Assembly: GCF_028275115.1 (NCBI RefSeq)
Contig: NZ_JAQCNH010000142.1
Location: 1-64,000, forward strand
Direction: 5' to 3'
DNA from: Halorientalis sp.
GTDB taxonomy: Archaea; Halobacteriota; Halobacteria; Halobacteriales; Haloarculaceae
Length of the DNA: 64,000 bases
The notes under the pieces are model-generated. The model was not told where the DNA came from and did no database searches. It saw nothing but the letters and a program-made list of their open reading frames with translations. The translations under genes and the position numbers were made by a program. Below are positions 6,650 to 54,473 of this stretch, piece by piece (position 1 is the stretch's first letter; each line of letters begins with the position of its first letter).

Positions 6650-7447
6650 ATGACTGACATCGATATCGATTTCGAGACGATTCGCATCGAGACGCCCGGG
6701 AATCACGTCGGCCACCTCGTGCTGGACCGGCCCGAAGACATGAACACGGTCAGCGCGACGATGCTCGACGAGTTAGACGAGGCCGTCGACGTGCTCGAGG
6801 ACCACGAGGCGGTCCGAGCCATCTACATCACCGGCGAGGGTGAGAAGGCATTCTCTGCGGGGGCGGACGTGTCCTCGAACGGTGCGATGGACAACCGCGA
6901 GGGCGTCGAACACTCCCGGTACGGCCAGCGCGTGTTCGGGAAGTTCCGCGAGAGCGACCTGCCTGTGATCGCGGGCATCGATGGCTACGCCCTCGGCGGT
7001 GGCCTCGAACTGTCGATGTGTGCCGACCTCCGGGTCGCCAGCGAGTCCTCGGAGATGGGGCTCCCAGAGCACACCCTCGGTCTCCTGCCCGGTTGGGGCG
7101 GCACCCAGCGCCTCCAACGGCTTATCGGCGAGAGCGCAGCCAAGTACGTCGTCTTCACCGCCGAGCGCATTCCCGCCGAACGCATGCACGAACTCGGCTT
7201 CGTCCACGAGGTGTACGACGACGAGGAGTTCGAGGAGCAGGCGCTCGAGTTCGCCGAGAACGTCGCCGGCGGCCCACCCATCGCGCAGAAGTACACCAAA
7301 CGTGCCATGCGCGAGGGCTGGGACAACATGGAAGCCGGCCTCGAACTGGAGGCCACCGCCTTCGGCCACCTGCTCGACACCGAAGACCTCAGCGAGGGGA
7401 TAACCGCCTTCGTCACGGATCAAGAGCCCGAGTTCGAGGGCGAGTGA
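6650..7447 (+). CDS. Enoyl-CoA hydratase/isomerase (crotonase family)
   Basis: A 265-residue crotonase-fold enzyme. The oxyanion-hole segments are visible: GEKAFSAGADVSS for the first, and GYALGGGLELSMCADLRVA for the second; the region MGLPEHTLGLLPGWGGTQRL carries the glutamate expected for a hydratase. The C-terminal helices also match. It probably hydrates trans-2-enoyl-CoA in fatty acid or related acyl-CoA breakdown, fitting the acyl-CoA dehydrogenase, hydroxyacyl-CoA dehydrogenase and thiolase genes elsewhere in the window. The ATG at 6650 (MTDIDIDFETIRIE) is chosen; upstream in-frame sequence is not family-like. Confidence 0.9.
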   Translation: MTDIDIDFETIRIETPGNHVGHLVLDRPEDMNTVSATMLDELDEAVDVLEDHEAVRAIYITGEGEKAFSAGADVSSNGAMDNREGVEHSRYGQRVFGKFRESDLPVIAGIDGYALGGGLELSMCADLRVASESSEMGLPEHTLGLLPGWGGTQRLQRLIGESAAKYVVFTAERIPAERMHELGFVHEVYDDEEFEEQALEFAENVAGGPPIAQKYTKRAMREGWDNMEAGLELEATAFGHLLDTEDLSEGITAFVTDQEPEFEGE

Positions 7448-7468: not shown

Positions 7469-7708
7469 CTACTCCGAGTCGGTAAACACCATCTCCGCGA
7501 TCTCGTGGCGCGGGTTCTCGTCGTCGTCGCCCTCGTACTTGTACAGCCTGCCGTCCTCCTCGTCGGCCGTCGCCTGGTGCGAGCCGTCACAGAACGGGTA
7601 GTTACCCGACAGCCCACACATACAGACGGCGATATTACCGTTCTCTTCGATGTCGTCCTCGTCGACGATCTTCGGTCCGGTTGCTTCGTGGGTGATCTCT
7701 CGTGTCAC
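7469..7708 (-). CDS. CDGSH-type iron-sulfur protein
   Basis: A 79-residue protein with the full CDGSH [2Fe-2S] signature: Cys29, Cys31, Cys40 and His44 in CMCGLSGNYPFCDGSH. Family members (mitoNEET type) hold a labile, redox- and pH-sensitive cluster and act in electron transfer or cluster transfer. I prefer the GTG start at 7708 (reads MTREITHEATGPK): a run of seven T on the coding strand lies 24-30 bases ahead of it, right for a leaderless promoter. The ATG at 7726 is also possible and adds six residues, but would sit only about 6-12 bases from that element. The stop lies 21 bp from the convergent enoyl-CoA hydratase stop. Confidence 0.85.
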   Translation of the reverse strand: MTREITHEATGPKIVDEDDIEENGNIAVCMCGLSGNYPFCDGSHQATADEEDGRLYKYEGDDDENPRHEIAEMVFTDSE

Positions 7709-7731
7709 ACGTTGACATGGGTCCACGAACT

Positions 7732-7810: not shown

Positions 7811-8871
7811 ATGGACAAGTGCCAGCGCCGGACTGGATACTACCTTCTCGGTTTAACCGGAGTCATGTTTATCTACATGTTGCTCTATCGCTGGGCCGCC
7901 GCAACCTTCGAGGGCGACGCCGTCGAGATCGGCGAGGACTTCGAGATCGTGGAGCTACCTGTCCTGTCCGGCAGCGAACTGGTCGGTGAGACTATCGCCG
8001 AAAGTGACATTCCCGAGCAGACGGGGGCGAACGTCATCGGCGCGTGGTTTCGTGGCGAGTTCGCCAGCCCACCGTCGCTCGACGCCCGGCTCGACGAGCA
8101 GACGATTCTGCTCGTCGCCGGGCACGACCGTCAGCTCGGCCCACTCAAGCAGATGACGCTCTCGGAGCAGCGTCGCCGTCGTCGTGGCCACGTCATCATC
8201 TGTGGCCACGGCGAAGTCGGCTCGACCGTCGGAGAGCGTGTCGTCGCCGAGGGTGTCTCCTGCGCCACGGTCGAGAAGAAAGCTCACGAGGGTGTCGATA
8301 TCGTCGGCGACGTGATCAAAAAGGACGTTCTCCGGGAGGCCGGTGCCGAGGACGCGAGTACAGTGATTCTCGCCCGCTCGTCGGACACGATGACGGTTTT
8401 CGCGACTCTAGTGGTGTGGGAACTCAACCCCGAGTCGAGATTATCGCGCGCGCCGGCCAGACGGAGAGCGTTCGCAAACTCTACCAGGCCGGTGCCGACT
8501 ACGGACTCGCGCTGGCGACCGTCAGTGGCCGGATGCTCGCCTCGACGCTATTCGAGGAGGACATCATCTCCTACGACAAGCAGGTCGAGGTCGTCAGATT
8601 CGACGCGAGTTCACTCGCCGGCGAGACGCTGGCCGGGGCGGACATCCGCGCCGAAACTGGCTGTACCGTAATCGCGGTCGAACGAGACGGCGACGTGATC
8701 ACCGACCTCTCGCCCGACTTCGAGGTTCGGCCGGACGACGACCTGATCGTCGCCGGTCCCGACGAGAACAGCACCGGATTCGCCGCTCGCTACGAGTCGG
8801 CCTCGCCGAGCCACTCGGGTTCCTCGACGGTCGTCGACCCGATATCCGAGAACGTGGCGCTGGCCTCGTAA
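7811..8871 (+). pseudogene. Potassium channel/TrkA-type RCK protein, decayed (pore deletion plus frameshift)
   Basis: Remnant of a haloarchaeal Kch-like channel with tandem RCK domains. Residues 1-35 (MDKCQRRTGYYLLGLTG onward) match the first membrane helix; then the frame jumps directly to a TrkA_C domain (FEIVELPVLSGSELVGETIA), so the pore loop, second helix and first TrkA_N domain are missing. A TrkA_N domain follows (GHVIICGHGEVGSTV) and runs to ELNPE. At about 8431-8434 one base is lost: the downstream VEIIARAGQTESVRKLYQAG and last TrkA_C continue in another frame to 8871. Restoring one G after the GAG there reconnects them. The C-terminus overlaps the convergent lipoprotein gene by 82 bp, suggesting read-through past the original stop. 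Almost certainly not a working channel. Confidence 0.85.
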
Positions 8872-9626
8872 CCGAACGAAAAACCCTGTTCGGAGCCGGA
8901 GGTGGCGCTGAACGAGGCCTCGTGGACGATCCCTGCTGAGTCGACGAACACCGTGCCCTTGGCCTCCACGTCACGACCGATATTCAGTTTCGCGTCGGGC
9001 GTCGACACCACGGTCTCGAGTTCATAGCGGACGAGTTCGGTCCCGTCACGGGTGACAACTTCGGTCGCGTTGTACGCCCCCGAACCGAGGATGGTTCGCA
9101 ACAGAGCCCGGCCGGTGAAACTGTCCGGCGCGGTGTCGGCGTACGGGGCGTCGACGGCCGCCGAGATAGCACCGTACTCGACGCCGTCGGACCCGTCGAC
9201 GCGGAAGGCTGCCGTGCCGTCCGTGAGGTACGATGTGAACGTGTCGTTGGAACCACCCCCGACGACCCGCGTCAGCGTCTCGTTACTGGCCGCCTCGTGT
9301 GCGATGGTGTAGTCGATGCCCGCGCTGGCAGAGCTCTCGCTGCCGCCCGCCGAGAATCCCTTCGTGCCCGAGAGCGTCACACTCGACCCCGAGAGTGCCG
9401 CCTCGTGTTCGTCCAGAAGCGTCGAGACGTTCTCGATGCCAGCGGGCGTGGCACCGGCCGGATAGGCGAAAGACGTCACCGTCGCGGTCGTCGAACCGAG
9501 TGCCTCGTCTTCCGAGCCGGGCTGTGTGTCGTCCGGTGTCACATCCCCGCCGGAGAGACCCCCTGTACACCCTGCCAGGGCAACGAGAACCGTCATCGCC
9601 AGCGTCGCGAGAACTCGTTTTCGCAT
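8790..9626 (-). CDS. Putative secreted lipoprotein, DUF-type, function unknown
   Basis: A 278-residue protein with an n-region MRKR, a hydrophobic stretch and a lipobox LAGC ending at Cys20, so it is a lipoprotein on the outer face of the membrane (Sec-type, no twin-arginine). After a Gly/Asp-rich linker the body is beta-rich with many Ser/Thr, and resembles the broad group of haloarchaeal surface lipoproteins that look like LolA/LppX-type folds, though I cannot assign it. The start at ATG 9626 is fixed by the signal peptide. Its 3' end overlaps the end of the broken channel gene. Function unknown. Confidence 0.75.
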   Translation of the reverse strand: MRKRVLATLAMTVLVALAGCTGGLSGGDVTPDDTQPGSEDEALGSTTATVTSFAYPAGATPAGIENVSTLLDEHEAALSGSSVTLSGTKGFSAGGSESSASAGIDYTIAHEAASNETLTRVVGGGSNDTFTSYLTDGTAAFRVDGSDGVEYGAISAAVDAPYADTAPDSFTGRALLRTILGSGAYNATEVVTRDGTELVRYELETVVSTPDAKLNIGRDVEAKGTVFVDSAGIVHEASFSATSGSEQGFSFGYEASATFSDIGSTTVEEPEWLGEADS

Positions 9627-16981: not shown

Positions 16982-17185
16982 ATGGACGAACTCGGGAGTC
17001 GGCCGACGGAGGGCCAGCGGGTCCGCGCCATGGTCGGTGGGCGGGCCGTTCACGGACGCGTCGAGTCAGTGACGTACACGCCGAAAAAAGGGAATCTGAT
17101 CGCGAAAGTAACCCTCGACGAACCGGGGCCGGACGGCCGAACGGCACTTGCAGTCGCCGTCGAAGATCTCGACGGTATCGACTAG
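16982..17185 (+). CDS. Small conserved haloarchaeal protein, function unknown
   Basis: A 67-residue protein, MDELGSRPTEGQRVRAMVG at the start, with a likely small beta-barrel (VHGRVESVTYTPKKGNLI, AKVTLDEPGPDG). The alternation and the turn-rich basic segment suggest an OB- or SH3-like fold that could bind nucleic acid, but I cannot place it in a named family. Its stop overlaps the stop of the convergent MutS5-like gene by 4 bp. The frame is open further upstream, but that part has no coding character. Confidence 0.6.
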   Translation: MDELGSRPTEGQRVRAMVGGRAVHGRVESVTYTPKKGNLIAKVTLDEPGPDGRTALAVAVEDLDGID

Positions 17186-18935
17186 TCCTGTGACCACTTG
17201 GCGTCTGCTAGCGTGCGCTGAACGGCCTCCTGACCGACCGCGGCGGCGAGTGTCTCGAACCCCGCACGTTCCTTCCGGTCGTCGGCGTTGGCCACCAGTC
17301 GCGAGACGATGAACTCCGGTGTGGACCTGCCGACGGTGCCGAAGCGGGGCTGGTAATCGACCGAGAGGTCCAGATCCGGGTCGAGCCCTTCTGCGAAGAT
17401 GCCGTCGGTTCGAGCCTCGTCGGGTAGCGGTTCGAGGTCGTCGGCGAGGTGGGTGACGAACACGCCCAGTGCGTCCTCGTCGACGGTCAGCGTCACCAGT
17501 CCGTGCAACATATCGGCGGCGCTTCCAGGTTCGGTGATAGCCTCGAACTCGTCGACGAGCATCAGGGTCCGGCCGTCGTCGGTCAGCGGCGGCACTACGG
17601 TCTGGAGCGTCGACTCCAGGACGCCCGCGTTGAAGCTGGCGTGCCGGCGGTGAAACACGATCACGTCCACGATGCCGACTTCGGCGGCGTCGGCCGGGAC
17701 GGGAAGCCCCATCTGCGCGAGCAACTGTACCTGACAGAGCGTTTCCAGCAGGGTGGTCTTCCCTCCGCTGTTCGCGCCAGTGAGAACGGTCACGCGGTCG
17801 CTCGGCGGCGGCGACCCGCTCGAAACGTCCAAATCGTGGTCACCGACGGCGTAGTCGACGGGTTGGACGGTGACGTCGGCCGCCTGGAGTTCGAGGTTCC
17901 GGGCTTGTGCGACGGCGACGGTCTCACCGTCGTCGGCGACGCCGGTCGCGTCAGGTCGAATGCTACTGCAAAACGAGCCAGAGAGACGTACAGTGCCGCG
18001 TCGTCGACGGCCGCGACGGCGGCATCGATCTCCTCACGGGCGTCCTCGATGGCGCCTTCCAGGTCGGCGGTGAGCTCCTCTCGCCGCTCTTCGACCGCGG
18101 TCCGGCGGCCGTCGGCCAGGTTCCGGAGGCTCTCTCCGACGAAGTCGGCGGCGTCGGTGGCGTCGCCGGGCATCGCTTCCCGGATCGTAGCCGCCGGAAC
18201 GGTGGTCTCGTCGACGATGTGGCGGCGGAACGCCTCGCGGAACTCCTCGGCCCCGCGGGCGCTTTCCTGGACCGACTCGACCACCGCGCTGCGGTTGGCG
18301 GCGAGTTCGTCGACGGCGGCGTACTGGTCGCGTAGTTCGTCGAGGCGGTCGTCGACGCCGCGGTCGACCCCGTCCTCACCCAGCGCCGCGAGTGCGTCGG
18401 CGGCATCGGCCAGTGCATCGCGGTGCAGCGCAGCCACGCGGTCGAAGACGCCGCCGCTGACACCGGCGTCGAGCAAATCGACTGCCGTCTCGACCGCCGA
18501 GTGTTCGCCACCGGTCACACTGTCGTGTGCCCCGAACGCCTCGACGACGGCTTCGCGGTCGGACTCGGAGAGGGCGGTCCAGGCGTCGACGGCCGAGAGG
18601 ACCGCGTCCAGCCGGTCGGTCATCGCTGCACGGTCACGGAGCGGGGTCAGTACGCGGATGCGGTCCTCGGCGTGCCGCGTGACGGCGAACTCACTGGCCA
18701 GGTCGAGCATCGACTTGTACACCGCTCGCGTGTCCCGGGTCGAGAGGACGGCCATCCCGTCCCCACCGTTGGCACGCCGAAGAATCCGGGTGGCACGCCC
18801 CCGACCGAGCCCGGCGTCCATCAGCGCCCGGCTGTCGGCGTTCTCGATGGCCTCGATTGCCGCGGCCTCACCGATACTGTCGGCCAGTACCGCCTTCGTC
18901 TTGGGACCGACGCCCCAGTACTCCTCCAGTCGCAT
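17182..18935 (-). pseudogene. MutS5-like ATPase with HhH domain, split by a frameshift
   Basis: A haloarchaeal MutS5-type protein of about 584 codons in two frames. The first part (18935 down to about 17950) holds a helix-hairpin-helix start (YWGVGPKTKAVLADSIGEAA), then a long helical core region. The second part (to 17182) carries the ABC-type ATPase: Walker A GANSGGKTTLLE, signature region and Walker B LMLVDEFEAIT, and FVTHLAD. The junction is at about 17935-17950: LTRP is followed, one base out of phase, by VADDGETVAVAQARNLE, which is the expected continuation. Total length 1754 bases equals a multiple of three minus one, so one base is missing. Either a true inactivating deletion or a sequencing error. 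Such proteins act in recombination or repair rather than classical mismatch repair. Confidence 0.82.
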
Positions 18936-18980
18936 ATCCGCGGCCAGAAGCGGCGCGGCCTTAGTGATTCGGAAACCCGC

Positions 18981-20774: not shown

Positions 20775-20853
20775 GCAACGTTTCTTGTCCGTTTCGGGTT
20801 TAACTTTGATGGTGTAATTATCATGGGGAGGAATTAATATTGTACAAGGACTG

Positions 20854-21705
20854 TCACCGTTGCTCGGCGGCGCGGGCGCGGTCGAGGACCTGTTCGGCCT
20901 GCGCGATCAGGGGCGCGTCGATCATTTCGTCGTCGACGCGGAACACGCCCCGGCCCTCCGCGTCGGCCTCGTCTCTGGCGTCCAGGACACGTCTCGCCCA
21001 GTCGACGCGCTCCTCGCTGGGGGTGAACGCGTTGTTGATGACCGGGACCTGCGCGGGATGAATTGCCAGTTTCCCGTCGAATCCGAGTTGGACGGTGAAC
21101 TCGGCGGCCGACTCCAGTCCGTCGGTATCGTCGACATCGACGTGAATCGTGTCCAGGGCGTCGACGCCGGCTGCTGCGGCGGCGAGGACGACCTGCTCGC
21201 GGGCGTGCAGTGCTTCGACACCGTCGTCGGTCCTGGTCGCACCGATGTCCGCCGCGAGGTCCTCTGCACCGATGGCGACAGCGTCGACTCGGGGAGTGGC
21301 GGCGATGTCCTCGGCGTGTAACACGCCCGCCGCCGATTCGATCAGTGCGACAACGGGAGCGTCGACGCCGTACTCGTCGAGCAGGCCGACGACTCGTTCG
21401 ACCCCCGCCACGTCACTGACTTTTGGGAGCATCACGGCATCGACTGGCGACGCGTCGGCCAGCGCGTTCGCCACGTCGGCGTCTGCCACTGTGCCCGGTG
21501 GGTTGACACGGACCCAGACCGAGCACTCGGGGTCGAATTCGGCGTCGGTGAGCACCTCGTGTATCGCGTCCCGGGCGACAGGCCTGCGGTCCGGAACAAC
21601 CGCGTCCTCCAAATCGAACACGACCGCGTCGGCACCGGAGCCGGGTGCCTTTCGCATGAGTGCGGGCTGGTCACCGGGTGAGAACAACACACTTCTACGG
21701 GCCAT
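20854..21705 (-). CDS. citE: CitE-like lyase (HpcH/HpaI aldolase family; malyl-/citramalyl-CoA lyase type)
   Basis: A 283-residue TIM-barrel lyase. Family hallmarks are [12 protein letters not shown] at the start, [16 protein letters not shown] with the Mg-binding region, [17 protein letters not shown] with the metal-ligand Glu, and [12 protein letters not shown]. Relatives cleave or form beta-methylmalyl-CoA, malyl-CoA or citramalyl-CoA. In haloarchaea such a lyase works with a mesaconyl-CoA hydratase in the methylaspartate cycle or in itaconate breakdown. Here it is divergent from a MaoC hydratase and upstream of gdhB, which supports an acyl-CoA role. The start codon ATG 21705 abuts one arm of a perfect 10-bp inverted repeat. 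Confidence 0.85.
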
Positions 21706-21762
21706 ACGCTGGCGTGTTCGCCCAGGCGTAAGTCCGTTCCCCCGCCGGGCGGACGCCAGCGT
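21706..21762. promoter_or_regulatory. Divergent citE/maoC promoter with perfect 10-bp inverted repeat
   Basis: ACGCTGGCGT (21706-21715) directly precedes the citE start codon, and its exact reverse complement ACGCCAGCGT (21753-21762) sits 37 bases away, just upstream of a TTTATTTT box centred about 28 bases before the maoC ATG. This looks like a pair of operator half-sites through which one regulator could control both genes. The repeat is seen directly; the regulatory role is inferred. Confidence 0.55.
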
Positions 21763-21791
21763 TTATTTTCGGGGCGGTCGAGAGGTCGGAC

Positions 21792-22247
21792 ATGCCTGGC
21801 CTGTACTACGAGGAGTTCGAGGTCGGAGAGACGATTCACCACGAGAAGCGCCGGACCATCTCCGAGAGCGACAACCAGCGGTTCTGTGATATGACGATGA
21901 ATCAGCAGCCGCTCCACCTCGATTCGGCGTTCGCAGCCGACACCGAGTTCGGCGAGCGCATCGTCAACGGGCTGTTAACAATGAGCCTCGCCGTCGGGCT
22001 CACGATTCCCGACACGACCGACGGGACCATCGTGGCGAACCTCTCCTACGACAACGTCGAACACCCGGCGCCGGTCTATCACGGCGACACGATTCGAGCG
22101 CAGTCGACGGTCACGGACAAACGCGAGACCAGCGACGGAGACCGCGGCGTCGTCACGATGCGCGTCGAGGCGCTCGTCGTCGGCGAGGACGACCGACTGG
22201 TCTGTGAGTTCGACCGGACGGCGCTCTCTCTGAAGCGACCCAGCTGA
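21792..22247 (+). CDS. MaoC family hydratase (single hot-dog domain)
   Basis: A 151-residue single hot-dog (R)-specific hydratase. The catalytic motif is intact: Asp33 and His42 in DMTMNQQPLHLDSAF, equivalent to the D-x-x-N-x-x-H dyad of MaoC enzymes. Such enzymes hydrate enoyl-CoA or mesaconyl-CoA; haloarchaeal mesaconyl-CoA hydratases of the methylaspartate cycle usually have two hot-dog domains (about 350 residues), so this shorter protein may act on another enoyl-CoA or pair as a dimer. It is divergent from citE. A TTTATTTT box 28 bases upstream indicates a leaderless promoter. Confidence 0.85.
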   Translation: MPGLYYEEFEVGETIHHEKRRTISESDNQRFCDMTMNQQPLHLDSAFAADTEFGERIVNGLLTMSLAVGLTIPDTTDGTIVANLSYDNVEHPAPVYHGDTIRAQSTVTDKRETSDGDRGVVTMRVEALVVGEDDRLVCEFDRTALSLKRPS

Positions 22248-35643: not shown

Positions 35644-36812
35644 TGTTCCACCTCCTCGAACACGTGGACTGTCGCACTCGCGACGGTCCCACCTGCGTTG
35701 TGGGCGAGGGCGGTCGTCGAGTCGTCGACGTCGTTAGCCCGGGGATGACGGCCCTCAAACAGCTTCGTGATGGAGATCAACTGTGCCACGCCCGTCGCGC
35801 CGACGGGGTGGCCCTTGGACTTGAGCCCCCCGGAGAGGTTCACGGGAAGGTCACCCTCGCGAGTGGTCTCGCCCCGGCCCGCGGCCCCGATAGCCTCGCC
35901 GGGTTCGTACAGACCCAACCCTTCCAGTGCGAGGACCTCGGCGATGGTGAAGCAGTCATGCACTTCCAGGAAGTCCACGGCATCGGGGCCGATGCCGGCG
36001 TCGTCGTAGGCTTCGTCGGCGGCGTCTTCGGTGGCTGGCGTCCGGGCGAAGTAGTCCCGGTCGTGCAGCGCCATCTTGTCACCGCCTTGCCCGGTGCCGG
36101 TGATTGCGACGCCGGTGTCGAGGTCGTGCTCGGCGGCGTACGCTTCGCTGACGAGGACCGCCGCGGTCGCGCCGTCCGTGATGGGACAGGAGTCGTACAG
36201 TCCGAGTGGATCGGCGATAATCGGCGCGTCGATGGCGTCCTCGGTGGTGATCGCCTGCTGCATCTGGGCGTACTCGTTGGGGAGCGCGTGTTCGTGATTC
36301 TTGACGGCAATCTCTGCGAGGTCGTTTTTCGATCCGCCGTACTTCTCGAAGTAAGCGCGAGCCATCAGAGCGTACGCGCCAGGGAACGTCATACCGGCAC
36401 GAATCTCGTAGAGGTCGTCAGCGGCGATAGAGAGCGCGTCGGTCGCTGCGGCCGTTCCGATGTTCGTCATCCGTTCGGAACCGCCGACTAGCACCACGTC
36501 GGCCTCCTCGTTGCGGAGTCGGAGCACGGCGTCCCGGATCGCCGCCCCGCTCGACGCGCAGGCAGACTCGTATCGCGTCGCCGGCACGTCGAGCCCGACG
36601 GCTTCGGCCATCAGCGGTGCTTGGTGGCCTTGGTGTTCGGCCAGTTCGCCCATGAAGTTGCCGTAGAAGAGCGCCTCGACGTCGTCCGGGTCGATCCCGG
36701 CGTCGTCTAGGGCGGCCAGTCCCGCCTCGGCGAACATCGCACGCCCGGTCTGTTCGGGGTGCTTGCCGAAGTGGGTGAGGCCGACGCCGGCTACGCGTGG
36801 GTCAGACATCAC
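35640..36812 (-). CDS. Thiolase family protein (acetyl-CoA acetyltransferase-like)
   Basis: A 390-residue thiolase of the archaeal SCP2/acetoacetyl-CoA type. The acyl-accepting cysteine is Cys85 in YESACASSGAAIRDA, and later HDCFTIAEV and LKSKGHPVGATG provide the catalytic His residues. In bacteria-like thiolases the last Cys is in CxG; here the archaeal pattern is used. It condenses or cleaves acyl-CoAs; paired with DUF35 it may start the mevalonate route, though haloarchaea have several paralogues used for beta-oxidation. Start is ATG 36812 or 36809. Confidence 0.88.
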   Translation of the reverse strand: MMSDPRVAGVGLTHFGKHPEQTGRAMFAEAGLAALDDAGIDPDDVEALFYGNFMGELAEHQGHQAPLMAEAVGLDVPATRYESACASSGAAIRDAVLRLRNEEADVVLVGGSERMTNIGTAAATDALSIAADDLYEIRAGMTFPGAYALMARAYFEKYGGSKNDLAEIAVKNHEHALPNEYAQMQQAITTEDAIDAPIIADPLGLYDSCPITDGATAAVLVSEAYAAEHDLDTGVAITGTGQGGDKMALHDRDYFARTPATEDAADEAYDDAGIGPDAVDFLEVHDCFTIAEVLALEGLGLYEPGEAIGAAGRGETTREGDLPVNLSGGLKSKGHPVGATGVAQLISITKLFEGRHPRANDVDDSTTALAHNAGGTVASATVHVFEEVEQ

Positions 36813-36932
36813 AACGGCTTACGAGTCGTTCCGCATTTAATCTTGCCGGTGTGAGCACATTTCGCACACGGTCACCGACGGGAGTCCGCCTCGAACGGGC
36901 CGCGAAACGGCCACGGACGGGCGGGAGGGCTG

Positions 36933-37328
36933 TCAGCCGAACAGCCAATCGAACAGGCCGTCGTCGGGGTCTGTGACTTCCCTGCCCGTGCCGAGCGCGG
37001 CCTCGGGGGCGTCGACGACCTGCGTGACCATTGGAAAGTCACCGGTCGGAATCGTCGCGACCTTCTCGGCAGTTTCGCACTCGGTGATCGAAATCCTCTT
37101 TTCGTTTTCTATCGAGACGAAGGCGTGGTCACCGCCTGGCGCGTTCGACACCCGGTAGGGGTACGTCCCTACGTCGGTGATACCGACGGTCTCGAAACTC
37201 TCGTGGTCGGTCACGGCCGCGTAGGTGCCCGTGGTGCACGCAGCACAGATGCACTGCTCGTCGGGCGAGACCTCGGTGCCGTGGAGGGTCGACTGCAGTG
37301 GGTATTTGTCCTCCGAGTCCGGCCACAA
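36933..37328 (-). pseudogene. Truncated beta-propeller (YncE-like) protein, C-terminal fragment
   Basis: A 131-residue fragment with repeat-like strands: STLHGTEVSPDEQCICAACT, VGTYPYRVSNAPGGDHAFVS and TIPTGDFPMVTQVVDAPEAA, the pattern of YVTN/cytochrome D1-like propeller blades. A working propeller needs six or seven blades, and only about two remain; the N-terminal blades are missing upstream of about position 37310. On the opposite strand an HTH-10 fragment begins at the same place, so both genes seem to have been cut by one deletion or rearrangement. It ends in an ordinary stop. Probably not functional. Confidence 0.6.
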
Positions 37329-38639: not shown

Positions 38640-39305
38640 TCAGGCTCGACTGTCCGGCGGTTCGTCGGTGTGGAGCGTCCCCTCGATCAGTGCGGCGACG
38701 GCCCGGCGGACTCGCTGGGAGACCGCCGAGTCGGAGACGCCCAGATTCTCGGCGAGTTCAGCCTGGCTGATCGACCGGGGGACATCAAAGTACCCTTCGC
38801 GCGCGGCCGTCAGCAGCGTCCGTCGTTGCTGGTCGGTCAGTCCGTGGTCGTCGCTCCGGGTGGGCTCGGTCCGGTAGAGACGTTCGAGCTGGTACTCGAT
38901 ACCGCTGTCGAGGCAGAACTCGCGGAACGCGGCCAGCGCGTCCCGGTCGGGGACTTGGAGCTTGACCAGCCAGAGGCCACCGGTACTGTACATCTCCAGC
39001 ACCATCCCACCGAGTTCGGTGACCGTCGGCGTGACCGCGATGACGTCCTCGGAGAGTCCAAGTCGGTACATGCGAACGCCGTCTTGCTCGGCCAACACGG
39101 TCGGCTCGGCGACGGTGTAGTCGTCGGCGAGTGCGTCGTCGAACGCGTCGAAGTCACCCCCCTCGACCAGAACGAAAAACCGCCGCCGCTCCGGGTCCAT
39201 GGCCGGCTGAAACTGGATGCAGACACGCGCAGACGGGTTCGCCTCGATGGTCGGCGTCATCACGAGAGTCGGCGAGGAAAGCGCGAGTTCGGCGATAACG
39301 AACAC
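38640..39305 (-). CDS. Bat-type HTH-10 transcriptional regulator
   Basis: A 221-residue regulator: the N-terminal part (about 1-150) is the haloarchaeal bacterioopsin-activator GAF/HTH-associated sensory fold (ARVCIQFQPAMDPERRRFFV, then LWLVKLQVPDRDALAAFREF), and the C-terminal part (about 160-215) is the HTH-10 domain, LTDQQRRTLLTAAREGYFD and ISQAELAENLGVSDSAVSQ. It probably activates or represses a few genes in response to a ligand or redox cue. It sits between two paralogous small genes on the same strand, and may control both. Start ATG 39305; ATG 39260 (MTPTIEANPS) is an alternative and quite plausible. Confidence 0.83.
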   Translation of the reverse strand: MFVIAELALSSPTLVMTPTIEANPSARVCIQFQPAMDPERRRFFVLVEGGDFDAFDDALADDYTVAEPTVLAEQDGVRMYRLGLSEDVIAVTPTVTELGGMVLEMYSTGGLWLVKLQVPDRDALAAFREFCLDSGIEYQLERLYRTEPTRSDDHGLTDQQRRTLLTAAREGYFDVPRSISQAELAENLGVSDSAVSQRVRRAVAALIEGTLHTDEPPDSRA

Positions 39306-39383
39306 TGCATCTGCTAGCAGGCTCGAGCGCTTTACCGTTGTGACTCAGGGCCGGCAGCGCTTTGCTCGCGACCCCTGGTCGAG

Positions 39384-39713
39384 CTACTCCGAAGCGTCCG
39401 GAAGCGAGTCTGGATCGCGGGGCATTCGTTCCGGGCCCTGTGCGAACCCACCGGCGACCCAGCGGTAGACGTGCGTCTCCGTGTACACGAACAGTTCGTC
39501 CCACCCGTCGAAGGCACGGTCCGGCAGTTCGGCCACCGTCTCGTAGCGGTGCCACTGTTCTTCGGGCGCGTCGAGCGTCCCCACGTTCTCACGGTACGCG
39601 ATCGATTCCGGTGAACTGTCCACTGCCTCCCCGACCAGTTCACACACTGTCGGTTCACCGTCGGACGCCACTGGCTCCCGCCCGTCGGCGACGTTGTCGG
39701 CTGCTGCCGTCAT
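39384..39713 (-). CDS. Small protein, paralogue 2 flanking the HTH-10 regulator
   Basis: A 109-residue acidic protein with a C-terminal motif ELFVYTETHVYRWVAGGFA followed by RMPRDPDSLPDA, matching the product at 38191-38541. The central part (VGTLDAPEEQWHRYETVAE) corresponds to RFGALDRLPDDPFDSTP in its paralogue. The gene is the first of a possible three-gene run (39713 to 38191) with 78-98 bp gaps. The next about 290 bp upstream hold no convincing gene. Confidence 0.7.
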   Translation of the reverse strand: MTAAADNVADGREPVASDGEPTVCELVGEAVDSSPESIAYRENVGTLDAPEEQWHRYETVAELPDRAFDGWDELFVYTETHVYRWVAGGFAQGPERMPRDPDSLPDASE

Positions 39714-53793: not shown

Positions 53794-54473
53794 TCAGGCC
53801 GCCCCGTCTCGGTCGGCCAGTTCGACCCCGAGGTACCCGCCGAGCGACGAGAGCCCGACGACAGCGACGACCGTCACCACGAGCGCGAACAGGAGGACCA
53901 GGGCGACGGCGACAGCACCGCGGCCGACGCCGATCAGGAACCCGAAGAGAACGACCACCGGTCCCGCGGCGACGAGACCGGAGAAGGCACGGTACGGATG
54001 CCGCTACTCCCGTCACTGCGGCCGATGTAGCCCGCGACCGCACCGCCCAGCACGGGCGAGAACGGGACGAACGAGGCGACTACGGTGGCGACTGCGCCGA
54101 TTACGGCGTTGGTGGTCGTGTCCGGGCCGGTCACACCGGCCTCGGCGCGTCGGCGGCGCCGGCGGGCACGGTAAAGCTTGAACGCCACGCCAGCGACCAC
54201 GAACAGGACGCCCGTGACCGCCAGTCCGATGCCACCCCACCACGCGAGCCCGTGGAGTGTGTCGACGAGTTGCGCCTCGGTCAGGCCGTCCGACCGCGCT
54301 GTGCCCTCTGCGACGACTGCAGCGATCCGGCTCCGGTCGGCGGCCGCGTAGAGCGTGGCCCCGCCCGCCGCGGACAGCAGTCCTGCGAGGACCGCCACGA
54401 GTGTGACCACCCAGTCGGCGGTGCGGCTGACGGCCCCGGAGCCGATTCCCCGTGGCTCGGATACTGAAGACAT
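53794..54473 (-). pseudogene. DUF5518-type membrane protein with a frameshift
   Basis: A haloarchaeal membrane protein interrupted by one missing base. From ATG 54473 (MSSVSEPRGIGSGAVSR) it has two helices, a basic segment (RARRRRRRAEAG) and the start of the DUF5518-like domain (VASFVPFSPVLGGAVAGYI). At about 53985-53993 the frame breaks; in the next frame the expected rest continues, AFSGLVAAGPVVVLFGFLIG and two more helices ending GGYLGVELADRDGAA at 53794. The 680-base length is a multiple of three less one. As written, translation stops soon after (53934). Upstream, an IS right-end remnant begins only 25 bp from the start codon. Confidence 0.7.

Follow-up and report, generated by a model that had tools for sequence, protein, structure and literature searches.

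The closest described relatives of the gene studied here are potassium channels that are gated by cytoplasmic RCK units. When the intact orthologue of Halorientalis regularis was compared with solved structures, the best matches were PDB 4gx0/4gx5 (residues 17-535 of 543; E = 4.5e-66 and 1.1e-65), followed by MthK. The molecule in 4gx0/4gx5 is labelled "TrkA domain protein" in the structure search, and we take it to be GsuK, a potassium channel of Geobacter sulfurreducens, in which a single chain presumably carries two helices with the pore and then two RCK units. MthK carries a single RCK in each chain. The intact H. regularis protein itself contains two stretches each of TrkA_N and TrkA_C.

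The stretch of DNA that we analyzed (64,000 nucleotides of a Halorientalis genome; hereafter, the window) holds at 7811-8871 a remnant of a gene of this GsuK/MthK kind, originally encoding ~542 residues with two helices and a double RCK. We consider it very probable that this locus is an ordinary, recently inactivated pseudogene of a vertically inherited RCK-gated potassium-channel subunit. Its parts and neighbors are as follows:

6650..7447, + strand: presumably an enoyl-CoA hydratase-like gene (our naming, from its sequence); synteny marker
7469..7726, − strand: divergent gene of a small protein, presumably CDGSH-type; synteny marker
7811..8671, + strand: open frame of 286 aa, whose ATG corresponds to the start codon of the gene in the relatives
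7811..7912, + strand: remnant of the N-terminus and transmembrane helix 1, from alignment to intact congeners
7913..7918, + strand: deletion junction, Gly-Asp codons; 639-642 nt absent relative to congeners
7946..8137, + strand: TrkA_C of the first RCK (Pfam PF02080)
8192..8431, + strand: TrkA_N of the second RCK (Pfam PF02254, profile positions 1-88 of 116), interrupted by the frameshift
8432..8436, + strand: site of the single missing base, from comparison with congeners
8437..8796, + strand: remainder of the second RCK in the next frame, with TrkA_C at 8593-8769
8797..8871, + strand: run-on past the lost stop codon; the frame ends at 8869-8871
8790..9626, − strand: convergent lipoprotein gene, open and under constraint, overlapping the remnant's tail

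Lesions of the channel gene

Alignment to intact haloarchaeal Kch-like proteins yielded full-length orthologues of ~542 aa at the same syntenic place in five congeners (H. pallida, H. persicus, H. regularis, and the genomes G007 and G001) and a damaged copy in the window. Synteny with the relatives is unbroken on both sides of the damage. In the gene tree, the remnant is nested in a six-row Halorientalis clade (support 100/99), where its end branch is the longest (0.18 vs 0.048-0.12 for the other rows), and it is 82% identical to the G007 copy over 328 columns. These comparisons indicate that the remnant shares its descent with intact RCK-gated two-helix potassium channels.

Against the syntenic Halorientalis DNA, the blastn alignment of the window breaks at 7912-7917, with 642 nt missing relative to H. 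regularis and G007 and 639 nt relative to H. persicus. The preliminary description had proposed an in-frame loss of the pore, the second helix, and the first TrkA_N domain, joined near 7916-7930, and this is what the alignment displays: the deletion runs from residue 35/36 to 248/249 of 543 in H. regularis numbering and takes out all three. The pore loop with its selectivity filter, present in 5/5 intact congeners aligned, is absent from the window copy, and so is a second transmembrane helix joined to RCK, which falls inside the deleted stretch. The window copy does not hold two complete TrkA_N plus TrkA_C units either, as the first TrkA_N is gone and the second is cut by the frameshift. Domain matches and the congener alignment together bear out the proposed anatomy of helix 1, TrkA_C of the first RCK, and the second RCK. 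The predicted 286-aa product of the open frame would contain helix 1, TrkA_C of the first RCK, most of TrkA_N of the second, and a tail of out-of-frame residues.

A draft indel error is a poor explanation for a deletion of 640 nt. In H. persicus, the lost stretch is bounded on each side by a Gly-Asp codon pair, of which the window retains one. Because the left end reads Gly-Ile in H. regularis and G007 and has diverged in H. pallida, the stretch shared by the two ends in the ancestor could have measured two to about six bases. This short repeat sits in the same codon phase at both ends, which accounts for the clean in-frame join; one third of random deletions are in frame anyway. Slippage between such direct repeats or microhomology-mediated end joining presumably produced the deletion; end joining of the latter type has been reported for Haloferax (PMC7521656). 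The in-frame join had earlier raised the thought that a soluble regulator lived for a time before the frameshift, an idea for which we found no positive support: the repeat explains the join, and helix 1 is kept, so that the product would not be soluble.

Downstream, the relatives match the upstream frame up to 8434 and the next frame from 8428 to 8796. The base described as missing near 8432 is located by this comparison at ~8433/8434, where the window lacks one base relative to the five intact congeners aligned. In all five, the codon that corresponds to 8794-8796 is directly followed by a stop; in the window, a sense codon stands in place of this stop, and the frame stays open to a stop at 8869-8871. 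As the frameshift leads a product begun at 7811 to a stop at 8669-8671, such a product would not reach the run-on tail. That the gene's end runs on into the lipoprotein gene, as previously noted, is correct inasmuch as the stop is lost and the overlap measures 82 bp, but the overlap is partly ancestral, with 10 bp already present in H. pallida and 4 bp in H. regularis. As read from the DNA, the lesions would abolish the ancestral channel function while intact orthologues exist in the congeners.

Is a short protein still made?

The main alternative to a pseudogene combines a real deletion with a sequencing error at the missing base and supposes that a short protein anchored in the membrane is made and used. 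This protein would consist of helix 1, TrkA_C, and the second RCK (~353 aa with the run-on) and might, for instance, supply the RCK partner to some other channel or transporter. We regard this as unlikely, and quite improbable in its more specific form, where the channel subunit became, through the deletion, an RCK regulator that has a membrane anchor but no pore and is still produced, the frameshift being a draft error; if true, a channel gene would have been reborn as a modulator. The in-frame join favors a used short protein, and so does the state of other genes in the window.

We scanned window genes against syntenic relatives for genes that are open there but frame-broken in the window. 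At least two genes besides the channel gene carry single-base losses, a MutS-domain gene (~17935-17943) and a DUF5518-like gene (~53988-53994), which suggests that draft indel errors are possible in this assembly. The MutS-domain-V gene (− strand, ~17185-18977) is one frame in G004 and G007 and lacks a single base in the window; the G005 copy has a frame break too, at a different place. The DUF5518-like membrane-protein gene (− strand, ~53800-54473) is open over 244 aa in G005, and the window shows a missing base and a 30-nt gap. The scan against G005 comprised 97 open frames that passed a codon-position filter, with shadow frames not all removed, and four of these fell into two-frame pieces: the channel gene, the DUF5518-like gene, 20813-22241, and 36779-37152. 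We rejected 20813-22241, which reads as a shadow frame plus a neighboring gene. At 36779-37152 (+ strand), a G005 frame of 135 aa matches in two frames, as either a frame break or a shadow frame would. The MutS-like case came from the scans against G004 (2/49) and G007 (2/46), where the other case was in each instance the channel gene. A further candidate, 38646-39709, proved to be two neighboring genes, and several other flags resembled shadow frames or read-through upstream of a start. Since two other window genes show single-base losses, the base missing at 8433 could well reflect a draft indel error, and the frameshift taken alone is weak evidence for a pseudogene.

The preliminary description had named a widespread short form, together with a frame restored on resequencing, as the sign of a real short protein. 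We found no other short form, whether in seven congeners, in 36 homologous loci, in four further loci, or among the listed rows of 146 genomes. All 36 homologous loci examined hold long open frames (539-656 aa from stop to stop), in a set where some species appear twice (L006/L042 and L005/L043) and the genome's own paralogue (L024) starts at a contig edge. Seven loci that looked short from their match span (L001-L003, L019-L021, and L023) proved to have long open frames. A search of the genus (8 genomes, including its own) returned no strong match through the join other than that of the window, and helix 1 appeared as a separate upstream match in several congeners. Five weak rows did cross the join (G001, G002, G004, G005, and G007; E = 1.7e-5 to 4.8e-4), spanning query residues 12 or 13 to 109 or 127; we took them as cross-matches between RCK units, because each is located immediately downstream of its genome's main match, at the expected position of the second RCK. 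In the search of the family, which gave a match in 139 of 146 genomes, the window alone matched strongly through the join among the matches listed, and the listed rows of other genomes begin no earlier than query residue 27. Besides the window itself, five listed rows had open frames of less than 500 aa. Of the four that we read, three are full-length Kch-like genes with a frame break, at L078 2360-2363 (G009), L079 ~1208-1254 (G031), and L080 1289-1297 (G020), and one is cut by a contig end (G111); the fifth (G139) lies at a contig edge. The three frame breaks are either real decay or draft errors, and such broken copies in three other family genomes count against the pseudogene reading insofar as broken frames are not unique to the window.

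Selection on the window branch bears on both readings. Using a codon model with six taxa (H. salina and H. marina were left out), we obtained a dN/dS of 0.086 on the window branch versus 0.048 elsewhere (p = 0.04, uncorrected). The rise also appeared, again with p = 0.04, under two other topologies. None of the other five tips showed a significant rise (0/5), and neither did the window branch in 4/4 flanking genes tested, presumably enoyl-CoA hydratase-like, lipoprotein, DUF998-like, and CcdA-like (the CDGSH gene, of 85 codons, was left out). That the ratio is raised and not lowered argues against a short protein in use, as do the lost stop codon and the changes at 19/195 sites that are otherwise invariant in the clade. 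The corresponding counts for the intact copies are 9/204 in H. pallida, 6/201 in H. persicus, 0/195 in H. regularis, 3/198 in G007, and 5/200 in G001, with 45/240 in the more distant H. salina.

The same data hold evidence against a pseudogene. The window branch is strongly constrained overall, as a used short protein would be, with a dN/dS far below 1 (likelihood range ~0.05 to 0.14; a value of 1 is excluded, 2ΔlnL = 64.9). The rise is marginal and is not significant in sub-regions (p = 0.073 when helix 1 is excluded, 0.068 for the RCK portion preceding the frameshift, and 0.48 for what follows it). Conservation downstream of the frameshift is not lower than upstream of it (dN/dS of 0.063 vs 0.078), and only 1/36 sites invariant over 27 intact homologues is changed, compared to 0-4 in intact copies (nine of the 36 loci, duplicates and distant paralogues, were left out of this count). 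The frameshift, as discussed, may be a draft error. Because the ratio lies far below 1, the locus cannot have had a long neutral life: if it was constrained as before and then became neutral, the neutral share of the branch is roughly 4% (range 0-10%), and the damage, if neutral since, is young. This dating is rough, as the six-taxon codon program was home-made and not checked against a standard package and the branches have high synonymous divergence. The low ratio by itself cannot tell recent death from continued use, and the selection data together fit either young decay or weakly relaxed use.

Assembly, paralogues, and a proposed course of inactivation

A second alternative, in which the organism's gene is intact and the deletion was introduced by the assembly, appears very improbable. 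The genome is indeed a draft of 150 contigs that is 91.9% complete, but synteny continues across both sides of the deletion, a repeat of ~2-6 bases is too short for a usual assembler to collapse 640 bp, neither the raised dN/dS nor the loss of the stop depends on the join, and no intact copy of this orthologue turned up elsewhere in the assembly. Programmed ribosomal frameshifting that joins the two frames has in its favor only that both frames are well conserved, and it is extremely improbable, as intact relatives encode the stretch in one frame.

A look for a paralogue elsewhere in the genome, which had been proposed as a check, yielded one that is intact, though distant. An intact homologue of 542 codons lies at the very start of contig C128 (1-1626, L082) and is 55% identical to the H. 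pallida protein. In the gene tree, it clusters with a copy from contig C4 of G003 and apart from the window gene. Contig C43 carries at its edge a partial copy (3-542, L083), which is 95% identical to the C128 copy over the 476 bp shared. Contig C128 has a GC fraction of 0.60, versus 0.66 for the window, and contains transposase-like genes; the copies on C128 and C43 each share their contig with genes that we presume to be amino-acid-permease-like, UspA-like, and transposase-like. The two copies are possibly a duplicated cassette on an accessory element. TrkH matches occur on contigs C25 and C139. Two damaged-looking TrkA_N stretches were also seen, at C128 6650-6928 and C100 74679-75003, one with two internal stops and one split over two frames. 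The distant intact paralogue and the TrkH/TrkA-type genes are candidate replacements for the lost channel.

For the pseudogene that we favor, the following course of events may be proposed. The ancestor would have been a full-length RCK-gated potassium-channel subunit, inherited vertically in Halorientalis. One deletion, by either of the two routes named above, would then have removed the pore, the second helix, and the first nucleotide-binding domain, and since all three are gone, no channel could form. After or around the deletion, the gene would have gathered unusual amino-acid changes and lost its stop codon, as well as one base, provided that the draft is correct at 8433. The order of these events and the absence of a used product are what we infer. 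With regard to annotation, the locus should be called neither a channel nor a regulator. It illustrates clearly how a deletion that is joined at a tiny repeat and stays in frame can mimic deliberate domain loss, and it suggests that at least one Halorientalis lineage, equipped with a distant intact paralogue and Trk-type genes, can do without this channel.

Comparison with known channels and regulators

A stand-alone RCK regulator form kept in other lineages was not found in the 36 loci, the four loci, or the matches listed for the 146 genomes, and the described systems place the remnant as follows. GsuK resembles the intact H. regularis orthologue along nearly its full length, whereas the window copy is without the pore, the second helix, and the first TrkA_N. 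MthK, a calcium-gated potassium channel (PDB 1lnq and others), matches approximately residues 30-328 of the intact orthologue, and most of this region is missing from the window copy. The KtrA/TrkA regulatory subunits have RCK-type TrkA_N and TrkA_C domains, as does the remnant; unlike them, the remnant has a helix in the membrane, is short of a full set of domains, and derives from a channel gene, not from trkA.
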